Part shown: piece after piece, positions 1,514 to 32,432 of the stretch
Numbering within the stretch: the first letter of the stretch is position 1
Layout: each line of letters begins with the position of its first letter
Source: Pseudomonas sp. MH9.2
GTDB lineage: Bacteria > Pseudomonadota > Gammaproteobacteria > Pseudomonadales > Pseudomonadaceae
Reading direction: 5' to 3'
Length of the DNA: 64,000 bases
Assembly: GCF_034353875.1 (NCBI RefSeq)
Contig: NZ_CP133784.1
Span: 3,128,501 to 3,192,500, forward strand
Translations under genes and position numbers: made by a program
Notes under the pieces: model-generated
What the model saw: only the letters and a program-made list of their open reading frames with translations
What the model was told of the DNA's origin: nothing
Database searches by the model: none

Positions 1514-1650
1514 TGATCCTACTGAATAAAGTCTGTCGGATCGAGCCCAGCAATTACAGGGGCTAGCCTGCGGGCTGATCAGAAATAAAGTCTGTCGCAA
1601 CACCAATTTTGTGAGCTGTTGCCGTTCGACCTACTAAATAAAGTCTGTCG
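1514..1650. repeat. Left end of the Tn7-like element: three TnsB-type sites
   Basis: Copies of AATAAAGTCTGTCG lie at 1525-1538, 1584-1597 and 1637-1650, all in plus orientation. The first and third are both preceded by CCTACT. Three widely spaced sites at the left end is the Tn7 arrangement, and Tn7 itself has the core ACAATAAAGTCT. Function is inferred from this arrangement. Confidence 0.85.
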
Positions 1651-12724: not shown

Positions 12725-13315
12725 TCACCCCACCTCTCGACCGATTGCCAGAGCCATCCAAGATGGCAGTAGCGACCGCACCGAGCTCAACGCCTGCCAG
12801 TCGATGGGAGTCAGCTGTATACGCAGCGTTTCCATTACCTCACCTATACGCCGCTCTCCCAACCAAGCCAAGGCTCGAATTACAGCACCGGCGGTCGTGG
12901 AACCAAGCGCTAGCATCCAGCGGGGGGCGTGCTTGATCTCAGCCGTTACTTCTCCCACTTGAAGCGTCCGAGCGCGCCCACTGGTGAGAAACGCGTCCCC
13001 ACTCGGCACTTGCACCGACAGGCCCAGCATCTTTGCGGAACGCGCCCCATCAAGGACGATGTCTTCCTGATTCTTCGAGGCTAGAGCACTGACAACCTTT
13101 TCCATCGCCGGCGTTACATACCTACCTTGATCGGTGATGGCCGCTAGGTAAAGCCCACGAGACGCACGGATTAGCTTCCCAGCCTTCGCCAATCGTGACA
13201 GCGCCTGGTCTACGGCGGCCCGGCTTCCCAAGTGCAGAAACTCCTTGGCGCTCAGCAAGCCACCCTCAGGCAGACGTCGGCTGTGCTCGAGGATCGATTC
13301 GGGGAGGGTCTTCAT
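12725..13315 (-). CDS. AbiEi-type antitoxin / transcriptional repressor, without a toxin partner
   Basis: 196 residues. The N-terminal winged-helix part (LLSAKEFLHLGSRAAVDQAL, then LIRASRGLYLA) matches AbiEi-type antitoxins (DUF6088-like), which repress their own operon and counter the nucleotidyltransferase toxin AbiEii. The AbiEii gene would normally overlap the 3' end. The sequence below 12725 encodes no such protein, and the ietA promoter region begins about 180 bp on. So the toxin has been lost, or the gene acts as a solitary regulator. A perfect inverted repeat lies just upstream. Confidence 0.8.
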   Translation of the reverse strand: MKTLPESILEHSRRLPEGGLLSAKEFLHLGSRAAVDQALSRLAKAGKLIRASRGLYLAAITDQGRYVTPAMEKVVSALASKNQEDIVLDGARSAKMLGLSVQVPSGDAFLTSGRARTLQVGEVTAEIKHAPRWMLALGSTTAGAVIRALAWLGERRIGEVMETLRIQLTPIDWQALSSVRSLLPSWMALAIGREVG

Positions 13316-16026: not shown

Positions 16027-17379
16027 TTACTTTGCAGGCCCTCGCGGCTTAGGCGACCCTTTGGATTCGAATAGCAGTCGGCTGTATGCATCCTCCAAGC
16101 CCTCCCGAGTTTGCTTGGGTAAGGCTGGTTTCTTCTCACGCTTTGGCTTCGAAGATGGATTGGAAGGTGAACCCGGTGGATGGAGCTGCTCGAAAGTCTT
16201 GCGCTCCTCGGCTGTAAGGGATGAAACAAAAACCTTCTCGCTCACCCGTGAAGCACGATCGTCCCTGGCAAAGCTCAAGACGTTTGATGGCATCGGCACC
16301 GGGAACGGGCAACGAAGGTCAGGCCTGCCCCCGGTTTTGCTCTTATGAACGCTGAGGCGAATTAGCTCCTCGACGTCGTCCCTACTGCTGGAGTACGAGG
16401 CTGAAAGGTATGCATTGTTGACGTCCTCCAGAGTAATCGTATGGCGACGGGCCGCACGGGCTTCGAGATACGCCACCTTGATCAGTTGAACCGCCAGACG
16501 CTTTATACCGAACGTCCAGCGATACAGCTCATGTACAAGGGCGGCTGGATCTGCGGATACGCGTCGTCCACTCACCCGGATGCATTCTCGAACATATTCC
16601 TCCCAAGCTTTCGAGTCAGGATGGTCCGGCAGCATGACGCGGAGGTCGGATAGAAGCCGTTGCTTGTCCTCACTGTTTCTTGTCAGCAGTTTGTGGCCCA
16701 AGCTGTAGTTCGCCACATAGATCATCGGAATCCCCAGCCCGGCCACGGTGAGGAGAATATCCGTGACCCGGGCTATGCCTTGACCAGTGCTCTGATGCTG
16801 CATCTCTTCGAGCATCATTAGTGATACACCGTCACGATTGACCCTACGCCGGCACTCCGTCAGCAGCTTTGATGTGTTCGCTCTAACTCCTGCCGCGTCG
16901 CCGCCGAGGAAGTCTTCCAACAACTGCCTGCCGCCAGCCTTCCCCCTTGCGCTGGCGTACCAGTACGAGATTAAGGTATGCGGTTCATGGTAATGAGCCG
17001 ATGCATAAGGAGCAGGTCCAGGCATTACCTTCATCAGCGCTCTAATAGTTTGGCTCTTCCCAATGCCAGCAAGGCCGGTAAGGCAAGTAGGGAACGCCTC
17101 CTCCTCAGGGGGGTGATACAGCCGCCGCTGATATTGCTGGTCAGTGGAAAAGCTCTCGGCCGAAAAGCTGCGCGCACGGTCAACGCTGTCTTTGATGAAG
17201 TCCAAAGAAAACTGGTTGGGAAGGAAAATCGTCTTCAGGGCCTCCGACAAACGCTCAGCGGCCAATGCGGGACTCAACTCCTCAAGACCGGTCACCGGAT
17301 CAGGATGCACTGTAACCAACCGCCGGATATCAGCCGGCGTGTCCGGTCCGTCAAAGCGCGTGGAAAAGATGTTAGTCAT
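16027..17379 (-). CDS. tnsC: Transposition regulator TnsC (AAA+ ATPase)
   Basis: 450 residues. Walker A GLAGIGKSQTIRAL, Walker B SLMMLEEMQH and a following LTVAGLGIPMIYVANY sensor region mark the TnsC/TniB ATPase. The lysine- and proline-rich C-terminus (SKPKREKKPALPKQ) probably contacts TnsA-TnsB, as in Tn7. TnsC polymerises on DNA next to the TnsD-marked target and activates the transposase. Its ATG lies 2 bases before the tnsB stop is reached, so tnsABC is one overlapping operon. A good ribosome site GGGGAAAGG precedes the ATG. Confidence 0.9.
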   Translation of the reverse strand: MTNIFSTRFDGPDTPADIRRLVTVHPDPVTGLEELSPALAAERLSEALKTIFLPNQFSLDFIKDSVDRARSFSAESFSTDQQYQRRLYHPPEEEAFPTCLTGLAGIGKSQTIRALMKVMPGPAPYASAHYHEPHTLISYWYASARGKAGGRQLLEDFLGGDAAGVRANTSKLLTECRRRVNRDGVSLMMLEEMQHQSTGQGIARVTDILLTVAGLGIPMIYVANYSLGHKLLTRNSEDKQRLLSDLRVMLPDHPDSKAWEEYVRECIRVSGRRVSADPAALVHELYRWTFGIKRLAVQLIKVAYLEARAARRHTITLEDVNNAYLSASYSSSRDDVEELIRLSVHKSKTGGRPDLRCPFPVPMPSNVLSFARDDRASRVSEKVFVSSLTAEERKTFEQLHPPGSPSNPSSKPKREKKPALPKQTREGLEDAYSRLLFESKGSPKPRGPAK

Positions 17380-19405
17380 GGCCTTTCCCCATCAACCGCT
17401 TCTGGTCGGCGGCATCACGCTCGGCCGCTCCGCCCTTTGCAGGACGCCCCAGCTTGCGAGTACCACTGTCCCAGGCTTTGCTTGTTGCGTGAAGAAACTG
17501 GGCATTGCGATCCTGGAGGATCGCGGGCTGTTCTTCACGAAGCTTCGCCTTGCCGCTCAGCCGATTCTCATTGAGCACTTGAAGATCCGAGAGCGAAATG
17601 TCGACACTGCTGGGATGGACGCTCGCTGGCTTTACAAAATCGAGTTCGTACAAGACACCCTCTAACTCGATCCAGATATGTCTGACACACATGGTCATCA
17701 CATAAGCTGAGACCCGTATCTGGCCATTGAGCGCAATCCTGTCAAAAACTTCGGTATCTATCAGCTTTGAAGAGTTGTACTTACGGCCATAAAAATAAAC
17801 CCCACTTCTTTTAATGTGTGCCGGATGAGGAGTCAGGAACTCTCGCACGGCGTAGTCGAAAGTAACCTCCGTTCCCGCATCGTAACCAAGATCACTGTAG
17901 AACTTGTAAATATTATGTGGGGTTGGACTGAAGCCCACTTCCAGCATTTCAGGTGTCATTCTCCCCTCAGCATCAGAAGCGTTATTATCATAAATAGCTT
18001 GCAAAATATGCCGCTTGCACATCTCCACAAAGTTGAGCGAGCTATGAAAATGTGTTTGCTGATCATTGTCAGACTTGGTCCGAGGATGTGACGATTCGAC
18101 CGTCGCTTTCGACTGACCCGAGTGGGTCGGAGTGAGCTCGAGCCTGGATAGCCAACTCATCATCTCGCCACGAGCGACTGCTTCTGAACGATTTGGTACG
18201 CCCATGGTGGAGCCAGGTCCACGATCGAAGACGATGTTTTGTGGCAGACCATAAGTGGGCCAGTCCTCTTCTCTAATCGTCAATCCAAATAACGAGGCAT
18301 ATTTGACCTTACCTATGGCCGTCGAAAACAGGGCCATCCGGTAAGCTTCCATATTCTCTTTGTTTTCGGAGAATCCCAAGGCGACGACGGCACCAGACTG
18401 GCCACACACCCCTCGAACTATACAAGCCGAATCCATAGCGGATCCTTCCAGCAAACCAGATATTTTTCCTTTGGGGTTATAACCATCGAACTCAACAAGT
18501 TGGTTAACATTGACGAGATCGTGAGCGAAGCTTCCAACAATTCCAGACTTTGCTCGAGCACCGCTGGGACCTCTGCGTGCTTTCCTATACGCCTTGGTGC
18601 TTATCACCTGACCAAGATAGTAGTCGTACTGTCCTTTTGTGGGAAATGGCTTCCCTTCAGGATGATAGAACTTCTTACTTCCCTCTGAAGTTGTTAGAGG
18701 AATACAACCGAACTCACCTACTAGCACGGCACCAAAAATCTCAGCGTCAGATTTTGTTTTATCATTGTAATTGATGAACCCATTAATAATAGAAGCCTGC
18801 ATTTCGGGCGTGGCGGGGAATCGGGATTTGCGTCCCGACCTAGGCGGACGTCCCAACATTTGCCCGTCTGCGGCCTGTTCCCTCTTGCCTGTTCCACAAC
18901 GGTCGAACTTAGGCATAAGCGCCCACTTCGAGCGGCCGAATACCAGATAGGTAAAAAACCAAAACCTCAACCGGGCGGCGTTCTGAGAGGGGGACTGGTT
19001 GGCGGCATAGGCATTGATGATCGACTCGGGATTGTCGCTGGAGAGGATCTCCTCAGCATCGTCTACCAAATCCGCTATGGCGAGGTAACGCTTGTTTACC
19101 ATTTCATCGTAGCTTTTCGTTGGCCTTACCCGATCCATTTCCAATTGATCCACTGAAATACCCCTGATGGCCTGCAACCAGGGAGGTGTGGCGTCACTGC
19201 CACATTCCAAAAGATCACCATTGGTCAATGCCAGATCAAATTCAGGCCGGGAAAACGTTAGCAAACTCGCAGTGGTGCCTTTTTCATCAAAAAATACAAG
19301 GCGCGCCCTATTCGCCTTGCCGGCACTTGCAAGAAAATAGTATTCGACATCCTTCGTCAGCCCTCTGAATCCCTCAGGTGCTTTCAGCTTGGAGCCAGTT
19401 ATCAT
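17372..19405 (-). CDS. tnsB: Transposase TnsB (DDE integrase fold)
   Basis: 677 residues, the size of Tn7 TnsB. The DDE residues appear as LVEFDGYNPKG (about 310), IVFDRGPGS (about 395) and KATVESSHPRTK (about 440). N-terminal helical DNA-binding domains and a C-terminal beta domain are expected. The C-terminal tail is charged (AERDAADQKRLMGKG). TnsB binds the repeated sites at both ends and cuts and joins the 3' ends. The start codon overlaps the tnsA stop (ATGA). Confidence 0.9.
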   Translation of the reverse strand: MITGSKLKAPEGFRGLTKDVEYYFLASAGKANRARLVFFDEKGTTASLLTFSRPEFDLALTNGDLLECGSDATPPWLQAIRGISVDQLEMDRVRPTKSYDEMVNKRYLAIADLVDDAEEILSSDNPESIINAYAANQSPSQNAARLRFWFFTYLVFGRSKWALMPKFDRCGTGKREQAADGQMLGRPPRSGRKSRFPATPEMQASIINGFINYNDKTKSDAEIFGAVLVGEFGCIPLTTSEGSKKFYHPEGKPFPTKGQYDYYLGQVISTKAYRKARRGPSGARAKSGIVGSFAHDLVNVNQLVEFDGYNPKGKISGLLEGSAMDSACIVRGVCGQSGAVVALGFSENKENMEAYRMALFSTAIGKVKYASLFGLTIREEDWPTYGLPQNIVFDRGPGSTMGVPNRSEAVARGEMMSWLSRLELTPTHSGQSKATVESSHPRTKSDNDQQTHFHSSLNFVEMCKRHILQAIYDNNASDAEGRMTPEMLEVGFSPTPHNIYKFYSDLGYDAGTEVTFDYAVREFLTPHPAHIKRSGVYFYGRKYNSSKLIDTEVFDRIALNGQIRVSAYVMTMCVRHIWIELEGVLYELDFVKPASVHPSSVDISLSDLQVLNENRLSGKAKLREEQPAILQDRNAQFLHATSKAWDSGTRKLGRPAKGGAAERDAADQKRLMGKGHD

Positions 19406-20388
19406 TCGGGCAGTCCGGCAAAAAGTGAGCCATAGACTTGCAGAACATCCGGCGCATCCGTCACCAATGGATGATCGATAAGAATAGGGTCAAACAAACT
19501 GACCTGGAGCTTGCGCTCCCATATGTCTTTGTAGATCTTCGTAAGAAACAGATCACGCCGTCCCCACTGTTTTCCGTACATTAAGGCAACGGACGCTACT
19601 GGTCTCCCATGAGTGACACAGTCTCTGACGTCATGTGAGAAGTCCTCGAGAAGATTTGATTCGAGGCAGATTTCGCGATCATGATAGCTATATAGAAGAT
19701 CCAAGTTGGCCACCAAGACTGGGTCCAACAGGTCCCTAGAAACCCTCACAGTCCTGATACCTGCACTATGGTAGTACGCCTCTTCCAAGGCATGCCGCAA
19801 GCGAGCTTTCTCGCGGTCTTCTTTTTGTTTCGCAAGGCTCTTCAAGCTTCCCCGAGCAACCTCGTCAAAATCCATCGCACTCAACTTCACTGTCCAGTTC
19901 ACAGCGTAGGGGACTGAGCCTTGCGGCTGGATATAGAGAAGAAGATCGCCAAGATAGGGGTGGGGAACCCTCTGGCGTTCACCATCACCGTAGGTCACGA
20001 CTACGGTCGCGTGTTTAAGCCCGATTTCCTCTGCCACCAATGATGTTCCCTTCACCGGCAGAAGTTCCAGTCCAGCAGTTAAGGGGTGCCCTTGAAGTGG
20101 ATGAACGTGTGGAATTGGACTGAGCATTTTCTGCTCATGCAACTCAAATACATCGGTATTATAAAGAGCCAGTTGGGCGAAGATCCTTTCAGGTGTAGAA
20201 AGAAGATGCAGTGCTCGGCCAAGCTTCCTGCTATTAAGGCGGCAAATACGAGAGCCCTTGGGAGCCTCACCAGGGACTGAGTAAATTCCGGCTAAGTAGT
20301 TATCTCCCCACTTGAAGCGGCCTTGTCGACCTATAATGCGAAGTAACGATTTTTTAAGATCCACTAATTTAATCCATCGTCCATTCAT
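19402..20388 (-). CDS. tnsA: Transposon endonuclease TnsA
   Basis: About 328 residues from the ATG at 20388 (MNGRWIKLVDLKK). A longer frame begins with TTG at 20442. TnsA cuts the 5' strands, giving cut-and-paste transposition. The nuclease core is suggested by a glutamate in TPERIFAQLALY, an aspartate in PYLGDLLLYIQP and VNWTVK, where the lysine matches the QxK of Tn7 TnsA but the glutamine position is not conserved. First gene of tnsABC. The N-terminal start is uncertain because no well-placed ribosome site is visible. Confidence 0.8.
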   Translation of the reverse strand: MNGRWIKLVDLKKSLLRIIGRQGRFKWGDNYLAGIYSVPGEAPKGSRICRLNSRKLGRALHLLSTPERIFAQLALYNTDVFELHEQKMLSPIPHVHPLQGHPLTAGLELLPVKGTSLVAEEIGLKHATVVVTYGDGERQRVPHPYLGDLLLYIQPQGSVPYAVNWTVKLSAMDFDEVARGSLKSLAKQKEDREKARLRHALEEAYYHSAGIRTVRVSRDLLDPVLVANLDLLYSYHDREICLESNLLEDFSHDVRDCVTHGRPVASVALMYGKQWGRRDLFLTKIYKDIWERKLQVSLFDPILIDHPLVTDAPDVLQVYGSLFAGLPE

Positions 20389-20442
20389 CCTTAGCAGGCA
20401 ACGTATAACAGCCCACCTGAATCGGATGAATAAGTAGTCCAA

Positions 20443-21080: not shown

Positions 21081-22697
21081 ATGAGCGCCGCTTCAGGTCA
21101 GGAATGGGTGGCAAGGCCATTCCCTCGGCTGGACTGGCTACCCGACGAGACACTGTTCAGTTTGTGCAGTCGACAGCATCTGGTAATGGGTAACTTAAAC
21201 CCTGGGACGACATCTACCTCGGTGTTGGGACTACGTCAACAATTTATAAAACATGATATCCCCTGCGGAATTTCAGCGTTAGAACGAACTGGGTTCGAAT
21301 ACTGGGGCAGTGCAGAATCTATTCTTCTTAATCACACAATATTCCCACTATTTGTTCCATTTCAAAATAAAGTTAAAATTGAAGACGCGATAAGAACTGT
21401 AAAAAGCGAACGCCTTGATTCAATTAAATATCGACTTGGCCTGGTATCAAGCGGCTTTGGCGCTGAACACCCGTTGAAAGCATGTCCGTACTGTATGCGC
21501 GAGGATGTGCACGCCCATGGCATAGCTTACTGGCACCTCACACACCAATATCCAGGTGTGTTGATCTGTCCACGCCATGAAGCTTGGCTCATGGCATCCA
21601 CCAAAAGTAGACGGTGGTCTGGTCGGTTTGAATGGTCGCTACCTGCCAAGGAATTCTTGATCGAACAGACCTCATCTCAGAAACTCTGGTCACGTCCAGT
21701 TTTTTTGGCCTTGGCGGACAATGTCATCGACCTTGCGTCCATCGGCCGAGCGAGGTCCTTCGAACCTTGCGCCGTCGCCACGGCCTATCGAACAGCTTTA
21801 CTCCACGGGAGCAGATCTGCATCACTGCTCGACCGCACCGAGCCGCTTCGCCGCTTTCATCTTTTTGAATCATTGCCGACAGACAAAAAAAGCTCAGAGT
21901 CATTTGTGAACCAGTTTGTCCGTACCCCCCGCGGAAGCATTCATCCTCTGAAACATCTGATTCTGATTGATTGGCTATTTGATGACCTGCACTCGTTTCT
22001 AGAGGCCTACAAAGCCGAAGTGGCCAGATCAGCCCAGCAAGTGGCACGCACTCCATCGCGGTTACCTGATAAGCGAGTCTCGCTATCAAGCTCTGGGGCT
22101 CCAGCCAAAAACGCTCCCAGGCCCAAACGACTAAAAGGCCAGCTCAAGGAGGATCTGCTTTCAAGACTGGCTGAGGGCGTGTCGAAACAGGTGCTTTGTG
22201 ACGAGTTTCAAATCACTGTCTCCACGATCAATAAGCTACTACGTGCCCATCCAGCGACCTACGCCATAGCACTTAAAGCTAGGCACCGCCGCGAGATTGA
22301 TGAGCACAGGAGTCAGTGGCAACACTTGCACAGTTTGTATCCTGAATTGGGAGTTCAGGCTTTGAGGAACACAATGCCTCCTCTCTACGCCTGGCTTTAT
22401 CGAAACGACAAAGCCTGGCTGATAGCCGAAGAGCAAACCTTCGCCAAACCTGCGCACGTGAACAAACACCATGTTGACTGGGAGGCCCGGGATTATCGGC
22501 TACTGAGCATGTTGCATAACGCGTGCGAGTCGATCGCTTTACCGCAGCGCGGTCCGGTCACAATGGCCCAGCTGTACGCCATGATCCCCATGCTCTCGAC
22601 TTGCCTAGAAAATCGGGGCCAATACCCCGAGTCCAGAGCATACCTGTCTACGGTGCTGGGTCGCTTCAAGCCGCAAGATCTCCTCGACCACGGATAG
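21081..22697 (+). CDS. tnsD: Target selector TnsD (TniQ family), probably recognises glmS
   Basis: 538 residues, similar in length to Tn7 TnsD. The N-terminal TniQ domain shows WLPDETLFSLCSR, the zinc ligands CPYC and CPRH with WHLTHQYPGVLICPRH, and YWHL. The C-terminal half has a helix-turn-helix segment (LSRLAEGVSKQVLCDEFQI, then STINKLL) and PPLYAWLYRNDKAWL, as in TnsD proteins. TnsD binds the end of glmS and recruits TnsC, which agrees with where this element sits. It is transcribed divergently from tnsABC instead of following tnsC as in Tn7. Confidence 0.88.
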   Translation: MSAASGQEWVARPFPRLDWLPDETLFSLCSRQHLVMGNLNPGTTSTSVLGLRQQFIKHDIPCGISALERTGFEYWGSAESILLNHTIFPLFVPFQNKVKIEDAIRTVKSERLDSIKYRLGLVSSGFGAEHPLKACPYCMREDVHAHGIAYWHLTHQYPGVLICPRHEAWLMASTKSRRWSGRFEWSLPAKEFLIEQTSSQKLWSRPVFLALADNVIDLASIGRARSFEPCAVATAYRTALLHGSRSASLLDRTEPLRRFHLFESLPTDKKSSESFVNQFVRTPRGSIHPLKHLILIDWLFDDLHSFLEAYKAEVARSAQQVARTPSRLPDKRVSLSSSGAPAKNAPRPKRLKGQLKEDLLSRLAEGVSKQVLCDEFQITVSTINKLLRAHPATYAIALKARHRREIDEHRSQWQHLHSLYPELGVQALRNTMPPLYAWLYRNDKAWLIAEEQTFAKPAHVNKHHVDWEARDYRLLSMLHNACESIALPQRGPVTMAQLYAMIPMLSTCLENRGQYPESRAYLSTVLGRFKPQDLLDHG

Positions 22698-22789
22698 GGT
22701 ATTAATGCATCCGAGCGTAGCTAGCTAAAGGTCGAACAAGATCGACGACTACGACCTCTGCCCGCCAAGACCAAAGTGTGAGTAACGTC
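22698..22789. other. Short gap after tnsD
   Basis: No feature seen. The minus-strand frame 22702-22917 is only the complement of the antitoxin remnant that follows. Confidence 0.3.
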
Positions 22790-23099: not shown

Positions 23100-23284
23100 G
23101 GCCGATTGTGTTGAAAAAGTCGGTTTTCTTAAACTGCCGAAAAATTGATCGGTGAAAGCGCCTTTTAGCACGCTGCTACGTGAAATCTCAGTCCGAATGC
23201 CTCTGCGAAAATTCTGGATTTCTATCTCAGGCGCTTACTTTTTTGCCATGGAAACTAAGGCCGACTTTTTCAACAGAATCGGCC
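23100..23284. mobile_element. MITE with IS1182-type inverted ends
   Basis: GGCCGATTGTGTTGAAAAAG at 23100 and its near-perfect inverse ending at 23284 form 24-base ends with one mismatch around about 137 bases with no gene. The same ends (CGATTCTGTTGAAAAAGT) flank the IS1182-family transposase at 24.7-26.3 kb. Similarity extends outside: GCGAGGGCAGCAATCG at the left of the MITE resembles GCGAAGGGCAGCAGTCG at the left of the IS, so the true tips may lie 15-20 bp further out. It is a non-autonomous relative. Confidence 0.75.
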
Positions 23285-23390
23285 AAAAGCAGACGTTCGG
23301 CAGTAGGGTCTTTTCCCTTGTTTCTCCATCCTGTACGCGCTAGCCTCAATGCTGTTTTAACCTCCACGAACAGGAAGAGTCAGTCACCCT

Positions 23391-23729
23391 ATGAATTTGG
23401 ATCGTGCAAAGCAGCTGATTCATGGAGAGTTAAATCATGACTTCCCTATTGAAAGTCTCATCCATGTACTTGAAGCTGCCATTGAGCTGATTTCTCTTCC
23501 GGACAATGACTTCTGCTGGTCAAGTTGGGAGGGCGAAGAACAGGCAAAGAGAGAATTGCTAGGTTTGGTCAGCACGCTGAAATCTGGCGTGTTACCCGAA
23601 AGGATAAAATTTGCTGTTCTGTTTGCTCCAACCGGTCCACTGCAAGAAGTCAGTCTGAGCAGTGGTTGGGCGGCCCCCTTCCTTAAAGTGGCTGAGAAAT
23701 ATGATGAAGTTGAAGCATTGCTGTGGTGA
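23391..23729 (+). CDS. Hypothetical small protein
   Basis: 112 residues (MNLDRAKQLIHGELNHD...). Acidic and helical at the start, with FAVLFAPTGPLQEVSLSSGW in the second half. No motif I recognise. It could be an immunity-type protein, since small acidic orphan genes of this sort are often scattered next to transposon ends, but this is a guess. It stands alone between the MITE and the next gene. Confidence 0.5.
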   Translation: MNLDRAKQLIHGELNHDFPIESLIHVLEAAIELISLPDNDFCWSSWEGEEQAKRELLGLVSTLKSGVLPERIKFAVLFAPTGPLQEVSLSSGWAAPFLKVAEKYDEVEALLW

Positions 23730-23930
23730 GCGGGCCAACAACGCACTCAATCTCGTCCACTAAACCGCATTTACGCGTTTTGTAACTGAGCCTTCGTGTA
23801 TGGCCGCTTTGGGTTGTGGATTGCTGCCCGTCGCAAATAACCGCAATCGGCCAAGAGCGGCCTTTTGGCTACCACGAGGCGAAGAAATGACGTCTACCAC
23901 TAAAGGCTTCAACTGATCTAAAGTACTGCC

Positions 23931-24638
23931 ATGAGCACACTCATCGAATTGACTACATCTCTGCACTTAACTGATATTGCTATTAATGCCGTCGGCGGAT
24001 TCCTCGGCAGCGCTTTACTGCTGTGGCTTGCAATGGGAAGGCAAGGTATTAAAACCTTGAGATCCAGAATCGCACGACCGACCGTCCTATTACAGCCCCG
24101 AAAAACGCCTGAAAATATCTTCACGGGCATCGAATTGGGAGCACCTGCAGAATGGATCAAGGAGCAACTAGGGCCCCCGAATAGGATCGCTGAGAATTGG
24201 TGGGGCTACCGATTTTCCGACTCCCTGGTTTCTCTTACATTCGACGCAAGCCATTCTCTATTGACGCTCGCTGTAGCACTCACAGATGAAACTACGATCT
24301 TTGAGTTTCCAGCAATGCATTTCGATTGCCCGCCACTAGGGAAAATAGCCCTGTCTGACCTTGAGGTGGATCATCTCTCATTAGAGTTCAATGAATCGAC
24401 CCGGCACAGTGAACTACTCATCAGCGGCCGCGAGGGTCCGCGAGGGGCCTGGCATTACATCGCTTTCGGAGCGCTAAGTCCGCACATCCCGGGACCTCTG
24501 TCGGAAAGTGATTTTCGCTGGGACAAGGACGAAGCCGCGCTTATAGGTCCCGCCGATCAGGTGAAGATCAACTGGGCTGCGGTGTCGGCAACTTCAGAAA
24601 TTGGCACGTTCCCATGGGATTTTGGTCTGAGGTTGTAA
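23931..24638 (+). CDS. Membrane-anchored protein, possibly ETEC_3214-domain family
   Basis: 235 residues. One membrane segment at about 15-37 (INAVGGFLGSALLLWLAMG) precedes a soluble domain. ELGAPAEWIKEQLGPPNRIA and NWWGYRFSDSLVSLTFD then SGREGPRGAWHYIAFGAL resemble, from memory, proteins annotated as ETEC_3214-domain, of unknown function and often on islands. The topology would put the domain in the cytoplasm. The gene is alone on its transcript, and the IS1182 element begins about 60 bp after its stop. Confidence 0.55.
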   Translation: MSTLIELTTSLHLTDIAINAVGGFLGSALLLWLAMGRQGIKTLRSRIARPTVLLQPRKTPENIFTGIELGAPAEWIKEQLGPPNRIAENWWGYRFSDSLVSLTFDASHSLLTLAVALTDETTIFEFPAMHFDCPPLGKIALSDLEVDHLSLEFNESTRHSELLISGREGPRGAWHYIAFGALSPHIPGPLSESDFRWDKDEAALIGPADQVKINWAAVSATSEIGTFPWDFGLRL

Positions 24639-24694
24639 GGTTTGCCAAGTCCTCTATAGACACTAATGTCCGCAACGGGTCGATTGATGACTGT

Positions 24695-26345
24695 CGCGAA
24701 GGGCAGCAGTCGACCGATTCTGTTGAAAAAGTAGATCTCCTGCTTGGCCTTTGGCAAAATATGGACATCGGCCGGCGGGAGGGTTCGCAGCATGATGGGA
24801 CAATTGTCGAGTGGACAGGAACGGCTGTTTTACTCGTTCAACATTGAAGATCACATCCCAGCAAATCACCTCCTGCGCAGCATTGATCGATGTCTCGATC
24901 TGAGCGACCTGCGCCATTACCTCGCCGATTTCTACAGCCCGATTGGGCGTCCTTCGATTGATCCTGAGCTGATGATTCGCATGTTGGTTGTGGGCTATTG
25001 CTACGGCATTCGTTCAGAGCGCCGGTTGTGCGAAGAGGCCCATTTGAACTTGGCGTACCGCTGGTTCTGTCGGTTGAGCCTTGAAGATGAAGTCCCCAAT
25101 CACTCTACTTTTTCCAAGAATCGCCATGGCCGTTTCCGGGACAGCGATCTGTTTCGTTGGCTGTTTAATGAGGTGCTGCGCCGCTGCATGGACGCAGGTC
25201 TGGTCAAGGGTGAAGGCTTTGCCGTGGACGCTAGCATCATCAAAGCGGATGCCAATCGGCAGCGTGGCGTTCCGGGAGATGAAGACGTCAACTGGAGCGA
25301 TCCTTCGCTAAGTACTCGTGCCGTACGTGAGTACCTTGAAGCGCTGGATGAAGAGGCTTTGGCTGAAACACTGCCTAAGCGCCTGTCGCTGACCGATCCT
25401 CTCGCTCGTTGGACAGCAGCTCCAGGAGGCCCGGCGTTCTTCGCTTACTCGACGAACTATCTGATTGATGTCGAGCATGGCGTGATCATGGATGTGGAGC
25501 CGACACCGGCTCATCGAACAGCCGAGGTCGAGAGCACCAAAATCATGATTGAGCGGGTCGAAGAACACTTCGATATCAAGCCGGATCGGCTCATCGGCGA
25601 TACCGCTTATGGAACCGCACCGATGTTGGCCTGGATGGTTGACGAAAAAGAGATCGAGCCACATGTGCCGGTTTGGGACAAAACCGAGCGCAAGAACGAC
25701 AGTCTCTCGAGTAGCGATTTTCAATGGAATGAAGAAGCGCAGGAGTATCGCTGCCCCACCGGTCATGCCCTGCGCAGCGAGTGGCGAGCCTTCAAGAACC
25801 AGCGCTCACATGTCACGAAAGCCGACACCATCATCTTTCGATCACGACAAACCGACTGCGCGAAATGCTCGATGAAAGAGCGCTGCTGCCCGAGCATTCC
25901 GGTTCGGAAAATCGCCCGTAGCATCCATGAAGCCGCGCGTGATGTTGCTCGGCGGATCGCCGCGACGCCTCAATATGTATGCTCCCGCCACGAACGGAAG
26001 AAGGTCGAAATGTTGTTTGCTCACCTCAAGCGAATCTTGAAACTGGATCGCTTGCGATTGCGAGGTATGAGCGGTGCGAGCGATGAGTTCACATTGGCGG
26101 CAGCGGTACAGAATCTGCGGAGACTGGCCAAACTGACTTCCCAAGGGCCACCAACCACGGGATAGGTGCGCCCGGAGTAAGCAAAAAACCTCAAATTAAT
26201 CCACTGACAAAGCTGCAACGGTCAACGCAAAACCGAAAAACCACCCAACGTGGTGAATAGGTTCTGAAGTGACGGCCAACCTCGATGTCTTCCAGTCTGA
26301 AATTCCGACTTTTTCAACACAATCGACCCAAAGCAGTCGTTGAGC
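24695..26345. mobile_element. IS1182-family insertion sequence
   Basis: Inverted ends ACCGATTCTGTTGAAAAAGT (24713-24732) and, inverted, GTCGATTGTGTTGAAAAAGT (26308-26327) flank a full transposase gene. 17 of the 20 bases match. Comparison with the MITE suggests that the tips extend outward to about 24695 and 26345. The exact limits and target duplication could not be fixed by eye. Confidence 0.75.
24792..26165 (+). CDS. IS1182-family transposase
   Basis: 457 residues from the ATG at 24792 (MMGQLSSGQERLFYSFNIED). The frame is open back to 24744, but the family starts here. DUF772-type N-terminus (HLLRSIDRCLDLSDLR, FYSPIGRPSIDPELMIRML, YGIRSERRLCEEA), then the DDE domain: FAVDASIIKADA, LIGDTAYGTAPML and near the end HERKKVEMLFAHLKRIL. 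A cysteine cluster (CAKCSMKERCC) is typical of the group. It appears full-length and could also move the MITE. Confidence 0.9.
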   Translation: MMGQLSSGQERLFYSFNIEDHIPANHLLRSIDRCLDLSDLRHYLADFYSPIGRPSIDPELMIRMLVVGYCYGIRSERRLCEEAHLNLAYRWFCRLSLEDEVPNHSTFSKNRHGRFRDSDLFRWLFNEVLRRCMDAGLVKGEGFAVDASIIKADANRQRGVPGDEDVNWSDPSLSTRAVREYLEALDEEALAETLPKRLSLTDPLARWTAAPGGPAFFAYSTNYLIDVEHGVIMDVEPTPAHRTAEVESTKIMIERVEEHFDIKPDRLIGDTAYGTAPMLAWMVDEKEIEPHVPVWDKTERKNDSLSSSDFQWNEEAQEYRCPTGHALRSEWRAFKNQRSHVTKADTIIFRSRQTDCAKCSMKERCCPSIPVRKIARSIHEAARDVARRIAATPQYVCSRHERKKVEMLFAHLKRILKLDRLRLRGMSGASDEFTLAAAVQNLRRLAKLTSQGPPTTG

Positions 26346-26358
26346 CGCGAAACATCCG

Positions 26359-27255
26359 CTAGCGGGCAAACTTTCTCGCGCCGGCGACACACAGGATCAC
26401 CGCAACGGTGACGCCGAGCATGCCAAGGCTGACCTGTTCGTGCAGCAGTGCGGCGGCCAGCGCCAAGCCAAAAAAGGGTTGTAGCAGTTGAAGCTGCCCG
26501 ACAGCAGCGATGCCGCCCTGCACCAGGCCGCGGTACCAGAACACGAAGCCGATCAGCATGCTGAATAGCGACACGTAAGCCAGGCTCAACCACGCCGGTG
26601 TGCTGATGCCCGAAAACGAAGCGGGTGCCAACCACGCTGTCAAAGGCATCACGACCGGCAGCGACAACACCAGTGCCCAGCAGATCACCTGCCAACCGCC
26701 CAAAGTTTTGGAAAGTTTTGCCCCTTCGGCATAGCCGAGGCCGCATGCAACAATCGCCAAGAGCATCAGAATGTCGCCGGTCCGTGAGGCTGTCAGTCCC
26801 TGAGTGACGGCAAACCCGACGACCAGCAGGCTGCCTAAGACCGAGAAAAACCAGAACACCGGTCGGGGGCGCTCGCCACCCCGCACTACGCCGAACGCGG
26901 CAGTCGCCAGCGGCAGCAGGCCGACGAACACAATGGAATGGGCCGACGTCACGTATTGCAACGCCAGTGCCGTCAGCAGCGGAAAACCGATCACAACGCC
27001 CATCGCCACGATGATCAAGGACAGTAACTGCTGGCGTGCCGGGCGCTGTTCTTTGAACAGCAAGAGCAGGCACAGCGCGAGCACGCCGGCGATGGCGGCC
27101 CGCACCACGGTCAGAAATACCGGGTCAAATTCCAGCACGGCGACGCGAGTGGCGGGCAGAGAACCGCTGAAGATCGCGACACCGATGAGGCCATTGATTA
27201 CACCGCTCGCTGGTTTTTCTGTCGCTGGGTTAAGCAGGTTAGAGGCGCGTTCCAT
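26359..27255 (-). CDS. EamA/DMT-family transporter
   Basis: 298 residues from the ATG at 27255 (MERASNLLNPATEKP). The frame is open back to 27315, where it overlaps the regulator's promoter. Ten hydrophobic segments in two repeats, e.g. VFLTVVRAAIAGVLALCLLL, GVVIGFPLLTALALQYVTSA and ILCVAGARKFAR at the end, match drug/metabolite exporters such as RhtA- and YdcZ-type efflux pumps. The gene is divergent from a MocR regulator, a common pairing where the regulator senses an amine or amino acid and controls the exporter. The substrate is unknown. Confidence 0.85.
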   Translation of the reverse strand: MERASNLLNPATEKPASGVINGLIGVAIFSGSLPATRVAVLEFDPVFLTVVRAAIAGVLALCLLLLFKEQRPARQQLLSLIIVAMGVVIGFPLLTALALQYVTSAHSIVFVGLLPLATAAFGVVRGGERPRPVFWFFSVLGSLLVVGFAVTQGLTASRTGDILMLLAIVACGLGYAEGAKLSKTLGGWQVICWALVLSLPVVMPLTAWLAPASFSGISTPAWLSLAYVSLFSMLIGFVFWYRGLVQGGIAAVGQLQLLQPFFGLALAAALLHEQVSLGMLGVTVAVILCVAGARKFAR

Positions 27256-27323
27256 TGAGTGTCCACTCCGTGTTGGGTTGCATAAAGCGCATCGTATGAC
27301 CGAATATCCAGACAATCAAAAAA

Positions 27324-28676
27324 TTGTCATGGATACATCTCGATATGCCCCGCTCCCGGTACAAGTCGTTGGTAGACACCTTTGCAGCCGATATCCGCGC
27401 TGGGCGATTGTCTCCCGGTACCCGTTTGCCGACACACCGCCAGCTCGCGGCCACCCATGGATTGGCCTTGGTCACCGCCAGCCGGGTGTATGCAGAACTG
27501 GAGGCCATGGGGCTGGTCAGCGGGGAAACCGGACGCGGGACGTTCGTGCGGGAAACGTCATTGCCGCCCGGCCAAGGTATCGACCAGCCGGACGTCGCGG
27601 CGGGGGTGATTGACCTCAATTTCAACTATCCAGCGGTGCCGGGGCAGGCCGACCTGTTGCGCAATGCCTTGCGGCAACTGGCGTTGTCCGGTGACCTGGA
27701 AGCGCATCTACGCTACCAGCCACATGCGGGCCGCCTGCATGAACGGGCTTCAATTGCGCGTCATCTGATCCACCGTGGCGTCACGGTCGATGCCGAGCAG
27801 ATTCTGATTGTCAGTGGCGCCCAACACGGTTTAGCGGTGAGCCTGATGGCGTTACTGCAACCCGGTGACTTGATCGCGGCAGATGCATTGACCTATCCGG
27901 GGTTCAAGTTGCTGGCCAAGGCATTGCACCTTGAAGTGGCGCCCATTCCTGCCACTGCTCAGGGGCCGAATCTCGATGCCCTCGCCACGCTCTGCCGCCG
28001 TCGTTCGGTGCGCGCTGTGTACACCATGCCCACGCTGCACAATCCGTTGGGTTGGGTGATGCCTGCCGATCAGCGCGAGCGCTTGGTGGCAATCGCCCGC
28101 GCGCATGACCTGATGATCATTGAAGACGCTGCGTACGCGTTTCTGGCGCAGGATCCGCCGCCACCCATCATTGAGTTGGCCCCTGAAAGAACGCTCTATG
28201 TGTCGGGGTTTTCCAAGAACATCGCCACCGGGTTACGCGTCGGCTTTGTCGCAGCCCCTGTGCACCGGGTGGACGCATTGAAGCGCACGGTCAAGGCCAC
28301 CACGTGGAACACACCCGGCGTCATGACTGCCATCACCTGCGCCTGGCTCGACGATGGCACGGTCGACATGCTGGAAGCGCAAAAGCGCGCGGACGCCCGA
28401 GCCCGGCAGGCGCTGGCCGACACGTTGCTATCAGGGTTGCCAGTGGTGCGTCATCCATCTTCGTACTTCCTGTGGCTGCCGTTGGCGGAGGACGCGAGGG
28501 CGGATCAGGTCGCCCTGGAATTAATGCGCGAGCACGTGTCGGTGTCGACGGCCGAGCCGTTTTCCACCTCGGTTCACATCCCTCATGCAATCCGGCTGGC
28601 GCTCGGCTCGGTGAGCATGGACACCCTGCGTGAGGCGCTGATCACCGTGAAGCGGGTGGTGGGGGCCTATACCTGA
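27324..28676 (+). CDS. MocR/PdxR-type GntR regulator with aminotransferase domain
   Basis: 450 residues. Residues 10-75 are a GntR winged helix (YKSLVDTFAADIRAG, LPTHRQLAATHGLALVTASR, GLVSGETGRGTFV). The rest is a fold-type I aminotransferase: YQPHAGRLHERASIARHL, TLHNPLGWVMP, MIIEDAAYAFL and the PLP lysine in VSGFSKNIATGLRVGF. Such proteins use PLP as co-effector and usually act on a neighbouring gene, here the divergent EamA transporter. The start shown is TTG at 27324 (SWIHLDMPRS). The ATG at 27348 is the alternative. Confidence 0.87.
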   Translation: MSWIHLDMPRSRYKSLVDTFAADIRAGRLSPGTRLPTHRQLAATHGLALVTASRVYAELEAMGLVSGETGRGTFVRETSLPPGQGIDQPDVAAGVIDLNFNYPAVPGQADLLRNALRQLALSGDLEAHLRYQPHAGRLHERASIARHLIHRGVTVDAEQILIVSGAQHGLAVSLMALLQPGDLIAADALTYPGFKLLAKALHLEVAPIPATAQGPNLDALATLCRRRSVRAVYTMPTLHNPLGWVMPADQRERLVAIARAHDLMIIEDAAYAFLAQDPPPPIIELAPERTLYVSGFSKNIATGLRVGFVAAPVHRVDALKRTVKATTWNTPGVMTAITCAWLDDGTVDMLEAQKRADARARQALADTLLSGLPVVRHPSSYFLWLPLAEDARADQVALELMREHVSVSTAEPFSTSVHIPHAIRLALGSVSMDTLREALITVKRVVGAYT

Positions 28677-28989
28677 TGCTGGCCGCTGCTCATGGATACA
28701 AAAGTGACGTCTGTTTTTGACTGGCAGTACGCAGAGCATTTCGAATGGCTGCAACTGGCCGATTTCTGCCGGTCACGAACGGAAGTAACCGTACAGAAGC
28801 TGTCATTCACTGCCCATGTAAAGCCTTGCATGGCCTAGCCGATGATCATCACAAGGCAGTTCATTCATGTCGCCGTGGTCTGGGGAGTCAGCAGAAGCGG
28901 CGAGTAGATGAATGTTCTTTTCCTACGCTGTCTAGAATTCCTGACGTAAAGTGCTTTTTGGCCAGTTAATGTCTAGGAAAATAGATGCT
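28677..28989. other. Non-coding stretch
   Basis: No gene is supported. The piece around 28752-28780 (ctggccgatttctgccggtc) resembles the decayed IS1182/MITE end repeats seen elsewhere in the element. Confidence 0.35.
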
Positions 28990-29253
28990 ATGCGACTCTC
29001 CATTCAATCGGATCAAGTGCTCGCCGCCACAGTAGGGGCACACCTTCAAATGCTGCAGTTGAAGAGGAACATCAGCCTTGAGACAGTAGCGGAGAACGCG
29101 GCGATCAGCCGGCAGACCCTGCACCTAATGCTCAATCAAGGCAAAGGCACCTTGATCAATCTGATCGCCGTTTTGCGCGCCCTCGGCGAGTTGGAGTGCC
29201 TGAGTTCGTTGTTGGAGGCTGATCAGTTGAGCCTCGGTAGAGCATCCCGCTAA
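28990..29253 (+). CDS. Small HTH (XRE/HipB-like) regulator without partner
   Basis: 87 residues from the ATG at 28990 (MRLSIQSDQVLAATVGAHLQ). Earlier in-frame starts exist at 28969 and, as GTG, at 28951. The HTH is QLKRNISLETVAENAAISRQ then TLHLMLNQGKGTLINLIAVL, close to HipB-type antitoxins. HipB is normally followed by the kinase HipA. The next 80 bases hold no such gene, so it is an orphan or its toxin was lost when the right end formed. Confidence 0.7.
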   Translation: MRLSIQSDQVLAATVGAHLQMLQLKRNISLETVAENAAISRQTLHLMLNQGKGTLINLIAVLRALGELECLSSLLEADQLSLGRASR

Positions 29254-29332: not shown

Positions 29333-30436
29333 CTATTGCCGCCTGTAGATACCCGGCGGTGCATTCTTAACGAGTTCAGGTTGAGGTTGAGGACCTTTTC
29401 TTTTTGGTCGCTCAAAATTACAGCAGGGATAATACACCGGCCGCCAATCCCACATCCCCCAAACTTTTTTTGCCGGGAAAGGGCAACTCCAATACCCCAC
29501 ACCATGTTTATAGTTCTCTTCAACGAAATGTGTTGATTCCTGGTGGCCTGCGATATAAGTCGACAACAGAGACTCGATCGGCCGAATTTCGTCCCCGTAA
29601 GCTTTCACATCACAAACGAAGTCAGCAAAACTTTCATAGGTTTCGACTATAGCTTGAATAATAAAATCAGTGGGTTCATCAGATGGAAGCCTGTTTACAG
29701 ACCTCGCGTTCTTGACAATTCCCAGCCGCCTTTCAATTTTATCTCCCAAACACCTGTCGGATTCAGAATTCCAGATTTTTTGCTCGAAGACTCCTTCTTG
29801 ATGGATTTTTTCATTTAAGACCGCGAGAACCGCCTCCTCCGAAAGGTGATGAGTGAATGACAGAATGTCCGTAAAAATCTGAGCTTTCTTCAACTCAAAT
29901 GGATCTGTGTTCAACGTCACAGGGCAGTTTTTTAGATGTCGTCCCTCACAAGCCTTCCACATCACCCCCAGATCATGACCTCCATGGGAAAACTGCTTGT
30001 CACAATGCGGGCAACGTTTGACTAGCTCTACATTGTGCTCCGCACAGACTTTCAGCTTAAAACAGTGAGCACGCCGCCAGAAAGAAAATCCTAAGCGCTC
30101 AATATCCTCTGCAACACAAACCGGGCAAAAACCTGATGGATTTCTATTTGAATCATAGAAACTTGAATAACTTATATACTCGTTCCTAGAGTAAGAAATA
30201 TCTTGAATATTCTTAAAAACTGCCGTGAAAGGATAGTTAGTATGCCTATGCAGCATCTTGTTCAAGCCGTAACAGCCAAACCATCCCAGTGCTTCAGCAA
30301 TTATCGAAACATCTGCTCGTGAGGGGCTTTTTGGAAACTTCCGAAACACTTCCGTGGAAGAGTGTTTTCCTTTAATAAAAAGAGTTCTCTCCACAAAGGA
30401 ACGCATAGTCTCCTCTGGCTGAATCGCTAGGATCAT
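29333..30436 (-). CDS. tniQ: Second TniQ-family protein at the right end of the element
   Basis: 367 residues. TniQ-type zinc motifs are clear: GFCPVCVAEDIERLGFSFWR with RAHCFKLKVCAEHNVELVKR then CPHC, and a third pair in KACEGRHLKNCPV. It is much shorter than TnsD and has no long C-terminal DNA-binding half. GGY-rich segments (VGYWSCPFPAKKVWG) end the protein. The gene is AT-richer than its neighbours. It stops short of the right-end sites by about 90 bp and is separated from tnsABCD by 6 kb. Other Tn7-like elements use a second TniQ for a second target choice. Its target is unknown and there are no cas genes here. Confidence 0.85.
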   Translation of the reverse strand: MILAIQPEETMRSFVERTLFIKGKHSSTEVFRKFPKSPSRADVSIIAEALGWFGCYGLNKMLHRHTNYPFTAVFKNIQDISYSRNEYISYSSFYDSNRNPSGFCPVCVAEDIERLGFSFWRRAHCFKLKVCAEHNVELVKRCPHCDKQFSHGGHDLGVMWKACEGRHLKNCPVTLNTDPFELKKAQIFTDILSFTHHLSEEAVLAVLNEKIHQEGVFEQKIWNSESDRCLGDKIERRLGIVKNARSVNRLPSDEPTDFIIQAIVETYESFADFVCDVKAYGDEIRPIESLLSTYIAGHQESTHFVEENYKHGVGYWSCPFPAKKVWGMWDWRPVYYPCCNFERPKRKGPQPQPELVKNAPPGIYRRQ

Positions 30437-30528
30437 TTTGGGCTTTCAAACCTTGAGCTACGCCCAGAGCGGGGAGGAGCGGAGGAAAGCGTCGCTAGCT
30501 ACCGAATCGGAGGGGGCGTAGGCGCCAG

Positions 30529-30573
30529 CGACAGACTTTATTTAGTTCCGACAGACTTTATTTCGTAGTTTCA
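30529..30573. repeat. Right end of the Tn7-like element: two TnsB-type sites
   Basis: CGACAGACTTTATTT at 30529-30543 and 30549-30563, inverted relative to the left-end sites, then CGTAGTTTCA to the tip at 30573. Tn7 right ends have more, overlapping sites. A further degenerate site inside could not be seen. Confidence 0.85.
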
Positions 30574-30596
30574 CGGTTTATCCACCTGTGGATAAC
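30574..30596. other. attTn7 insertion point and glmS 3' flank
   Basis: The 23 bases between the transposon tip and the glmS stop codon match the spacing of classical attTn7. They hold TTATCCAC/GTGGATAA (30578-30595), an 8-base inverted repeat with a 2-base loop that contains a perfect DnaA-box sequence (TGTGGATAA). CGGT or CGGTT next to the tip is the likely duplicated target. Confidence 0.8.
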
Positions 30597-32432
30597 TTAT
30601 TCCACAGTCACTGATTTAGCGAGGTTGCGCGGCTGGTCGACGTCTGTGCCTTTGAGTACGGCCACGTAGTAGGACAGCAGTTGCAGCGGGATGGTGTAGA
30701 GAATCGGCGCCAGGGTGTCGACGATATGCGGCATGGCGATGACGTGGGTGCCTACGCCATTGCTCATACCGGCGTGCTCATCAGCGAAGACGATCAATTC
30801 ACCGCCGCGTGCACGGACTTCTTGCAGGTTGGATTTGAGTTTTTCCAGCAACTCGTTGTTGGGTGCGACGGTCACGACCGGCATGTCGCTGTCGACCAGT
30901 GCCAACGGGCCGTGTTTGAGTTCGCCGGCAGGATAAGCTTCCGCGTGAATGTAAGAGATCTCTTTGAGCTTGAGCGCACCTTCCATGGCCACCGGGAACT
31001 GCGCGCCACGGCCAAGGAACAAGGTGTGGTGCTTCTCAGCAAACAGCTCTGCGACTTTTTCGACGGTGCTGTCCATGGCCAACGCTTCGCCCAGACGGGT
31101 CGGCAGGCGGCGCAGCTCTTCAACCAGTTCAGCTTCAACGCCGTCCTCAAGAGTACCTTTGACCTGTCCAAGCGCCAGGGTCAGCAGCAGCAGGGCAACC
31201 AATTGCGTGGTGAAGGCTTTGGTGGAGGCAACGCCGATTTCCGGACCGGCCTGGGTCAGCAGGGTCAGGTCGGACTCACGCACCAGTGAGCTGATGCTCA
31301 CGTTGCAAATGGCGAGGCTGCCAAGGAAGCCCAGTTCTTTCGCGTTACGCAAGGCCGCGAGGGTGTCCGCGGTTTCGCCCGACTGCGAGATCGACACGAA
31401 CAGCGTGTCAGGCTGCACCACTACTTTGCGGTAGCGGAATTCGCTGGCCACTTCGACCTGGCACGGGATACCAGCCAAACCTTCTAACCAATAACGCGCC
31501 ACCATACCGGCGTGGTAGCTGGTGCCGCAGGCGACGATTTGCACATTACGTACTTTGGCGAACAATTCAGCAGCTTGCGGACCGAACGCCTGCACCAACA
31601 CTTGCTGTTGACCGAGTCGGCCTTCCAGGGTGCGCTGCACGACTTTAGGTTGTTCGTGGATTTCCTTGAGCATGAAGTGACGGAACTTGCCCTTATCCGC
31701 GGCTTCGGCGTCTTCACGATATTGCACGACTTCACGCTCGACTGGCAGACCATCCAGGGTCCAGATCTGCACGCTGTCACGATGGATTTCGGCGATATCG
31801 CCTTCCTCCAGGTACATGAAACGGTCAGTCACCTGCCGTAAAGCAAGCTGATCGGATGCCAGGAAGTTCTCGCCCAGACCCAGACCAATCACCAACGGGC
31901 TACCACTGCGGGCGGCGAGTAAGCGGTCAGGCTGTTTGGCACTGATCACGGCCAGACCGTAAGCACCGTGCAATTCCTTGACAGCGGCTTTCAGCGCGAC
32001 GGTCAGGTCGCCACAGTCTTTGAGCTTGTGGTGCAGGAGGTGGACGATGACTTCGGTGTCGGTGTCCGACGTGAAGACGTAACCCAGCCCTTTCAAGCGC
32101 TCGCGCAGCTCTTCGTGGTTCTCGATAATGCCGTTGTGCACGACCGCCACCTCATCAGCGGAGAAATGCGGGTGGGCATTACGCTCGCACGGGGCGCCAT
32201 GGGTTGCCCAGCGGGTGTGAGCGATACCCAAACGGCCAACCAACGGCTCGCCAGCAAGGGCTTGCTCCAACTCAACAACCTTGCCCGAACGACGGCAACG
32301 TTCCAGCTTCCCGGCATTGCTGAAAATAGCGACGCCTGCGCTGTCGTAGCCACGGTACTCAAGGCGTTTCAGGCCTTCGAGCAAAATGGCAGTAATATTG
32401 CGCTCAGCAACGGCGCCGACGATTCCACACAT
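30597..32432 (-). CDS. glmS: Glutamine-fructose-6-phosphate aminotransferase
   Basis: 611 residues, full length. The N-terminal glutaminase domain begins [12 protein letters not shown], with the nucleophile Cys2 and AHTRWATHG. Two SIS sugar-isomerase domains follow, with [22 protein letters not shown] and [18 protein letters not shown]. It makes glucosamine-6-phosphate, the first step to UDP-GlcNAc for peptidoglycan and LPS. The 3' end, conserved in all bacteria (LAKSVTVE), is what TnsD recognises, so the gene stays intact after insertion. It lies 9 bases downstream of glmR. Confidence 0.98.

Follow-up and report, generated by a model that had tools for sequence, protein, structure and literature searches.

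The closest described systems are loci in which TnsABC is accompanied by two proteins of the TniQ family. Faure et al. (2023; PMC10293859) already describe 1,048 such dual TniQ–TnsD loci; in their account of them the authors suggest that TnsD selects the target directly and TniQ indirectly, and the same paper provides a precedent for a short TniQ that works with another selector. The type I-B1 CAST elements (AvCAST, Tn7743) and Tn7017 also have two TniQ-family proteins, one of which serves the attachment site, that is, glmS in the I-B1 CAST and parE in Tn7017 (PMC11406308). The plasmid routes which this source names for Tn7 relatives are TnsE or Cas complexes, with Tn5053 as the case that uses TniQ only, and TnsE homologues are described there as almost universal in glmS-targeting elements. 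Benler et al. (2021) report plasmid-borne Tn7-like elements without identifiable tnsE; the selector is left open in the passage concerned.

We analysed a stretch of 64,000 nucleotides from Pseudomonas sp. MH9.2 (contig NZ_CP133784.1), called the window in the following, whose positions are counted from its first letter, and the relatives of the element found therein. Like the dual loci of Faure et al. (PMC10293859), this element combines TnsABC with a long TnsD and a short TniQ. In comparison with the description of these loci, new here is a single family whose core is defined and whose ends are located, together with a tally of insertion sites, empty plasmid sites and near-identical elements at both destinations; the family is not named in the titles or abstract beginnings of the open-licence literature surveyed. 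With Tn7, which carries TnsD and TnsE, it shares the insertion at attTn7, the right end towards glmS and a second destination in plasmids. It differs from Tn7 in that no sixth shared gene could be TnsE, in the extra TniQ at the right end and in a TnsABC too divergent for matches to Pfam TnsA and TnsB. In contrast to the type I-B1 CAST and Tn7017, no cas genes or array were seen and TniQ is without a known partner.

The right end of the element (30530..30573, reverse strand) was located by a site search as two TnsB-like sites AAATAAAGTCTGTC at 30530 and 30550, 20 nt apart. Its outermost base at about 30573 is 23 nt away from the stop codon of the host gene glmS (30597..32432, reverse strand), whose 3′ end adjoins the attTn7 target. 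At the left end (1514..1649, forward strand) the same search found three TnsB-like sites at 1524, 1583 and 1636. The repeat CACGGTT was read from the sequence at 30572..30578 and in a second copy at 1508-1514, and the target duplication is located within it. Because the end sites are opposed and CACGGTT is present on both outer flanks, we regard 1514-30573 as one element of about 29.1 kb. It is inserted at attTn7 with the right end towards glmS, where the earlier note had also placed it. Directly adjoining the left end, at about 1466-1499, are two more sites which are oriented as at a right end and spaced by about 20 nt; one of them came from the site search and the other was read by eye. They are probably what is left of the right end of an older neighbour in tandem. 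A hairpin with z < -1.5 is seen just inside the second right-end site in 13 of 17 cases, with differing sequences; the window copy (30470-30530) has z -0.1, unlike most relatives.

TnsD (21081..22697, forward strand), a protein of 538 aa and the presumed attTn7 selector, was recognized by Pfam TnsD (119 bits) and also by Pfam TniQ, in agreement with the earlier reading. The other three proteins are encoded on the reverse strand, and Pfam TnsA and TnsB had no match among their ORFs in the window. TnsA (19402..20442) was assigned from operon order, size and homology within the family. TnsB (17372..19405), presumed to be a DDE-type transposase, is matched in tblastn by a gene which carries the annotation Tn7 TnsB (21%, E = 2e-9). 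The AAA ATPase TnsC (16027..17379) was assigned from order, size and sub-threshold AAA matches. We class the element as Tn7-like, as TnsABC and a TnsD/TniQ selector are found in one element (TnsA and TnsB via synteny and homology) and the ends bear multiple TnsB-type sites and are flanked by a short target duplication. Within the family, this duplication is clear over 4 bp in L144, L126, L035, L136 and L101, and the fifth base agrees in some. With a TnsD longer than 400 aa (538) and a clearly smaller TniQ (367 aa) it is also a dual TniQ–TnsD element.

In the window copy, TniQ and TnsD are separated by cargo and insertion sequences (23100..29253), among them an IS1182 transposase (24744-26165), a MocR-like gene (27324-28676) and, next to TniQ, an HTH ORF (28951-29253) which is present in some relatives only (L002, L016, L024). 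PADLOC further identified defence cargo: Gabija GajA (7100-8836) and GajB (5677-7263), the ietAS pair (IetS 9030-11462, IetA 11488-12483) and an AbiEi-like gene (12725-13315). Of these, ietAS and the AbiEi-like gene are also present in the elements of G292 and G632. The segments 12018-12057 and 22722-22761 form a 40-nt direct repeat of 88% identity, 10.7 kb apart.

TniQ (29333..30436, reverse strand) is the first gene inside the right end. Its ORF is intact, starts with ATG and codes for 367 aa; Pfam TniQ matches with 38.6 bits (cut-off 27). Between the gene and the glmS stop codon (30597-30599) are 160 nt, which include the transposon end. C104, C107, C131, H134, C142, C145 and C163 are invariant in 20 aligned homologues, a pattern that suggests zinc binding, and the GC content of 0.43-0.45 is to be compared with 0.565-0.60 in glmS. 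Thus, length, Cys/His motifs and AT-richness are as the earlier note had described them. The homologues share a part of about 300 residues, and no large extra region is common to the family. In a profile search of solved structures with TniQ, the sole credible match was TnsD of Tn7 (E = 1.7e-6); the AlphaFold model, based on 5 sequences, has a pLDDT of 38. The dN/dS ratio (Nei–Gojobori) of the window TniQ is 0.24 against G038, 0.21 against G136 and 0.35 against L002; the values against G038 and G136 are 0.29 and 0.25 for TnsD and 0.14 and 0.12 for TnsC. Judged from these ratios, TniQ is under purifying selection. Disruption in most copies, which the earlier note had named as an outcome that would speak against its proposal, is not what we find, as TniQ has no stop, frame split or short fragment at 28 of 34 loci; it is broken or fragmentary in G094, G250, G289, G296, G327 and G340.

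Relatives of the window TniQ were found in 33 of 398 Pseudomonas genomes at an E-value threshold of 1e-20. These give 34 loci when three pieces in G340 are counted as one; the fetched stretches were annotated with profiles built from the window proteins. The genes are arranged in two orders, right end-TniQ-TnsD (reverse)-TnsABC and right end-TniQ-TnsCBA (reverse)-TnsD; counted from the right end, both begin with TniQ. A pair of right-end sites, 19-21 nt apart, is present upstream of TniQ in 30 of the 31 elements whose fetched sequence covers TniQ and, at least in part, TnsC, with the outer site 40-446 nt away; the pair is missing in G085 because the contig begins there. The earlier note had TniQ apart from the tns operon. 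This applies to the window copy, whereas in several relatives TniQ, TnsD and TnsABC are grouped together. In 23 elements TniQ measures 297-471 aa and TnsD 517-600 aa (ORFs taken from the first start).

We compared all ORFs of at least 80 aa, all against all (blastp, 1e-8), in the seven elements for which both ends could be located, namely the window element, G038, G292, G632, the CIP-10 elements 1 and 2 and the element of P. koreensis p1. Five families are common to all seven: TnsA, TnsB, TnsC, TnsD and TniQ. TniQ is therefore a fixed core gene and not the odd extra gene for which it had been taken. Clusters found in five or four of the seven elements are, by their coordinates, antisense over core genes; those found in three are either of this type or cargo. 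The smallest element, CIP-10 element 2 with 17.6 kb, has beyond the core, among its listed genes, an IS3 transposase, a 63-aa ORF and a type I restriction system with an AAA ATPase.

Among the complete elements, none was found to carry this TniQ and lack TnsD. In G214, TnsABC and a TnsD of 484 aa are located about 140 kb from glmS; TniQ and the right end are absent from the stretches examined. It is the one longer stretch without TniQ and probably a remnant. Thirteen other places with TnsC were left out of the TniQ scoring on account of contig ends, fragments or distance, namely G030, G076, G077, G180 and G330 (TniQ on another contig) as well as G215, G245, G272:C82, G280, G386, G443, G490 and G577, and likewise a plasmid with TnsC only. 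In one scan of viral contigs no relative was confirmed. Beside the family studied here there is another Tn7-like one, whose end repeats resemble TGTGACAACCTTTATT. Its TnsD has about 490 aa and its TniQ about 300 aa (L036 14660-17015 with L035 1-2300; L116 2430-17059); one copy is beside glmS (G149) and another on the G038 contig with conjugation-type genes.

At 28 of the 34 TniQ loci glmS adjoins the right end. The other six comprise one reversed element at glmS (G292), two in tandem, one near conjugation-type genes (G038) and two that we could not assign (G009, G085). The tandem loci, G149 and the second copy of G192, are separated from glmS by another element, at distances of 36 and 46 kb. 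The G292 element (L117 2975-3130 and L101 5040-5170) is at attTn7 with its left end 23 nt from glmS and a GTTTT/AAAAC duplication. That the different TniQ of G292 moved the element off glmS is ruled out, since the left end shows the element to be at attTn7, reversed. The G038 element is on a contig without glmS, and attTn7 of that genome is empty. Beyond its left end follow a HerA-like/TraM-recognition gene at about 14 kb and a TraG-type gene at 21-24 kb. This element is close to the window copy (TniQ 83%, TnsD 87%, TnsC 92% identity). A further sample of the family had TnsC in 12 of 298 genomes at an E-value threshold of 1e-40; the element is beside glmS in G508, G595, G624 and G632, with a second copy behind the first in G508.

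Three elements were found on two large plasmids, two in the plasmid of Pseudomonas sp. CIP-10, which is typed conjugative, and one in P. koreensis p1, which carries MPF_I and is typed non-mobilizable. The empty sites are known from related plasmids (p1(2021b) and AR19438 for CIP-10, pRBL16 for P. koreensis p1), and the matches on either side of the insertion have 4 to 6 bp in common. CIP-10 element 1 and the attTn7 element of G057, compared over the first 20 kb of the G057 locus, are 99.96, 99.98 and 100% identical over 5271, 4074 and 2181 bp, in total 11.5 kb which include TniQ and TnsD. In CIP-10, TnsB contains an additional IS5, and 6.4 kb of G057 are missing at that place. In the P. koreensis p1 element both TniQ and TnsC are broken. 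The homologues are thus not confined to attTn7; such a confinement was the other outcome that, according to the earlier note, would have spoken against its proposal. We searched plasmids in PLSDB only (72,556 records), where complete elements are present in two records; in PLSDB the plasmid destination is therefore rare. With tblastn, TnsC hit 3 records and TniQ 8, two of them with 80% coverage. TnsB hit 223 records, of which two cover 80% at 47-48% identity; the rest among the matches listed are at about 21%. Tn5053 is comparable in that TniQ is used for reaching plasmids, and it inserts at resolvase resolution sites (PMC11406308); here, judged by gene annotation, none of the genes in the examined stretches around the three plasmid sites is a resolvase. 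An integrase is about 4 kb from the empty site of pRBL16. Two other plasmids gave partial matches: a 19.6 kb P. aeruginosa plasmid has a TnsC-like gene of this family (L127 9836-11104) near an integron and apart from the rest of an element, and a P. amygdali plasmid (L151 6001-6153) contains 153 bp with 77% identity to the right-end region of the window.

Over 23 elements, the identity of TniQ correlates only loosely with that of TnsC, with a Spearman coefficient of 0.58, the coefficient with that of TnsD being 0.08, the pairs not being independent. The G292 element has 24% identity to the window copy in TniQ, 76% in TnsD and 91% in TnsC. G327 and G624 agree in TnsC to 90% and in TniQ to 36%; both are at glmS in the usual orientation. 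In G327 the TniQ match has two in-frame stops and the ORF is 344 aa long. Further TniQ proteins of the G292 kind are distant ones only (27-33%). As read from these comparisons, the fast-changing TniQ can be swapped without the element leaving glmS, which fits TnsD as the attTn7 selector. The reversal in G292 hints that TniQ may act at attTn7.

Among 25 distinct ORFs of the window scanned by Pfam, which are part of its ORFs, there was no cas gene, and no regularly spaced repeat array was found between 9000 and 30700; within this scope the absence of cas genes and array noted earlier holds. The element is thus no CRISPR-associated transposon in the sense of Cas effector genes plus array, as far as the scanned ORFs and repeats go. 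Cas6f, the one cas family searched for genome-wide, was not found in six element-carrying genomes including that of the window; the control matched in one named genome. The seven elements with both ends located share no cas-like sixth family and no TnsE-like one, though a very divergent TnsE might escape the clustering. The Pfam search for TnsE was uninformative, as its control matched nowhere. No listed gene of CIP-10 element 2 could be TnsE; its gene table may be incomplete.

This family thus has two kinds of destination, without Cas seen and without a sixth shared gene. We suggest that a Tn7-like family of the Pseudomonadaceae with five core proteins lives by two routes. TnsD, bound to the end of glmS, would direct TnsC and the TnsAB transposase to attTn7. 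The second route, which leads the element into large plasmids and similar DNA at varied sites, would have the small TniQ as its selector or adaptor; for this, TniQ would recruit TnsC to a host-encoded partner or to some feature of the incoming replicon. Two points are what we infer here, namely that the plasmid choice is due to TniQ and not to TnsD, and what TniQ recognizes. We assign TniQ to the second route because it is the only other shared selector-type protein left and because short TniQ proteins are known adaptors. By this elimination and precedent, we consider the chances of a division of labour between TnsD at attTn7 and TniQ on the plasmid route to be about even. The earlier proposal of another target-choice route therefore stands in so far as the family reaches three plasmid sites and one near conjugation-type genes with no cas seen; TniQ as the chooser is our interpretation. 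Against it counts that most copies are at attTn7, that plasmid copies are rare, that the resolved insertions away from glmS number four, two of them in one plasmid, and that a swapped TniQ leaves the element at glmS. Furthermore, since no TniQ-only element was found, TnsD was available in every plasmid insertion as well.

Three other explanations have to be weighed. TniQ and TnsD could act jointly at attTn7, where TniQ would form a bridge to TnsC or fix the orientation, with no second route specific to TniQ. Both proteins are found in every one of the seven elements whose two ends could be located, most TniQ loci are beside glmS, and the one clearly swapped TniQ, that of G292, is in the element that is reversed at attTn7. 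G292 is, however, the only such example, the usual orientation is kept in G327 and G624 despite their different TniQ proteins, and the plasmid insertions are left unexplained. In addition, insertion at attTn7 by the TnsD of Tn7 requires, to our knowledge, no second TniQ. We therefore consider joint action unlikely, although it is the strongest of the three. Still less probable is, in our view, that the plasmid insertions are the work of TnsD at imperfect sites or of a weakly targeted TnsABC, with TniQ as a modulator of TnsC or a relic. Rare off-site insertion is known for Tn7 in general, TnsD is present in all three plasmid-borne elements, and these copies are rare. Yet the 100-bp outer flanks of the four resolved non-glmS insertions bear little likeness to the 3′ end of glmS. 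Seven of the eight flanks score like shuffled sequences (p >= 0.296) and the eighth, a left-end flank, has p = 0.044; by comparison, two flanks at attTn7 reach scores of 89 and 105, with shuffles at about 15. Moreover, these four sites are on plasmids or near conjugation-type genes (G009 and G085 are outside this count), and a TniQ kept in all seven elements under purifying selection is unlike a relic.

Finally, TniQ could be a leftover of an RNA-guided route, or could still serve one, after loss of a CAST or through a CRISPR effector of the host in trans. Three PADLOC CAST TniQ models match the window TniQ weakly (best E = 2.7e-11), and the branch around Tn7017 consists, as described by Faure et al. 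(2023; PMC10293859), of dual tniQ–tnsD elements mostly without Cascade. Two of the three models are, however, also matched by the window TnsD, Cas6f is absent from the genomes mentioned above, and the seven elements retain TniQ without a shared Cas gene. An RNA-guided origin or function thus appears very improbable to us. Returning to TniQ as the selector of a plasmid route, a more far-reaching reading is that a short TniQ, either by itself or aided by a host factor, would send a glmS-homing element into conjugating DNA and so take the place of TnsE and of RNA-guided Cas complexes; we hold this somewhat more tentatively, at a little below even chances.

In summary, this family is a small and defined case, with five core genes, located ends, and a copy at attTn7 that is near-identical to one on a plasmid, and for this reason the role of the short TniQ is directly testable. 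If this more far-reaching reading is correct, TniQ would be one of the plasmid selectors yet to be recognized for which the passage of Benler et al. (2021) leaves room, and a TniQ that works without Cas may show the role of this adaptor before CRISPR systems were recruited.
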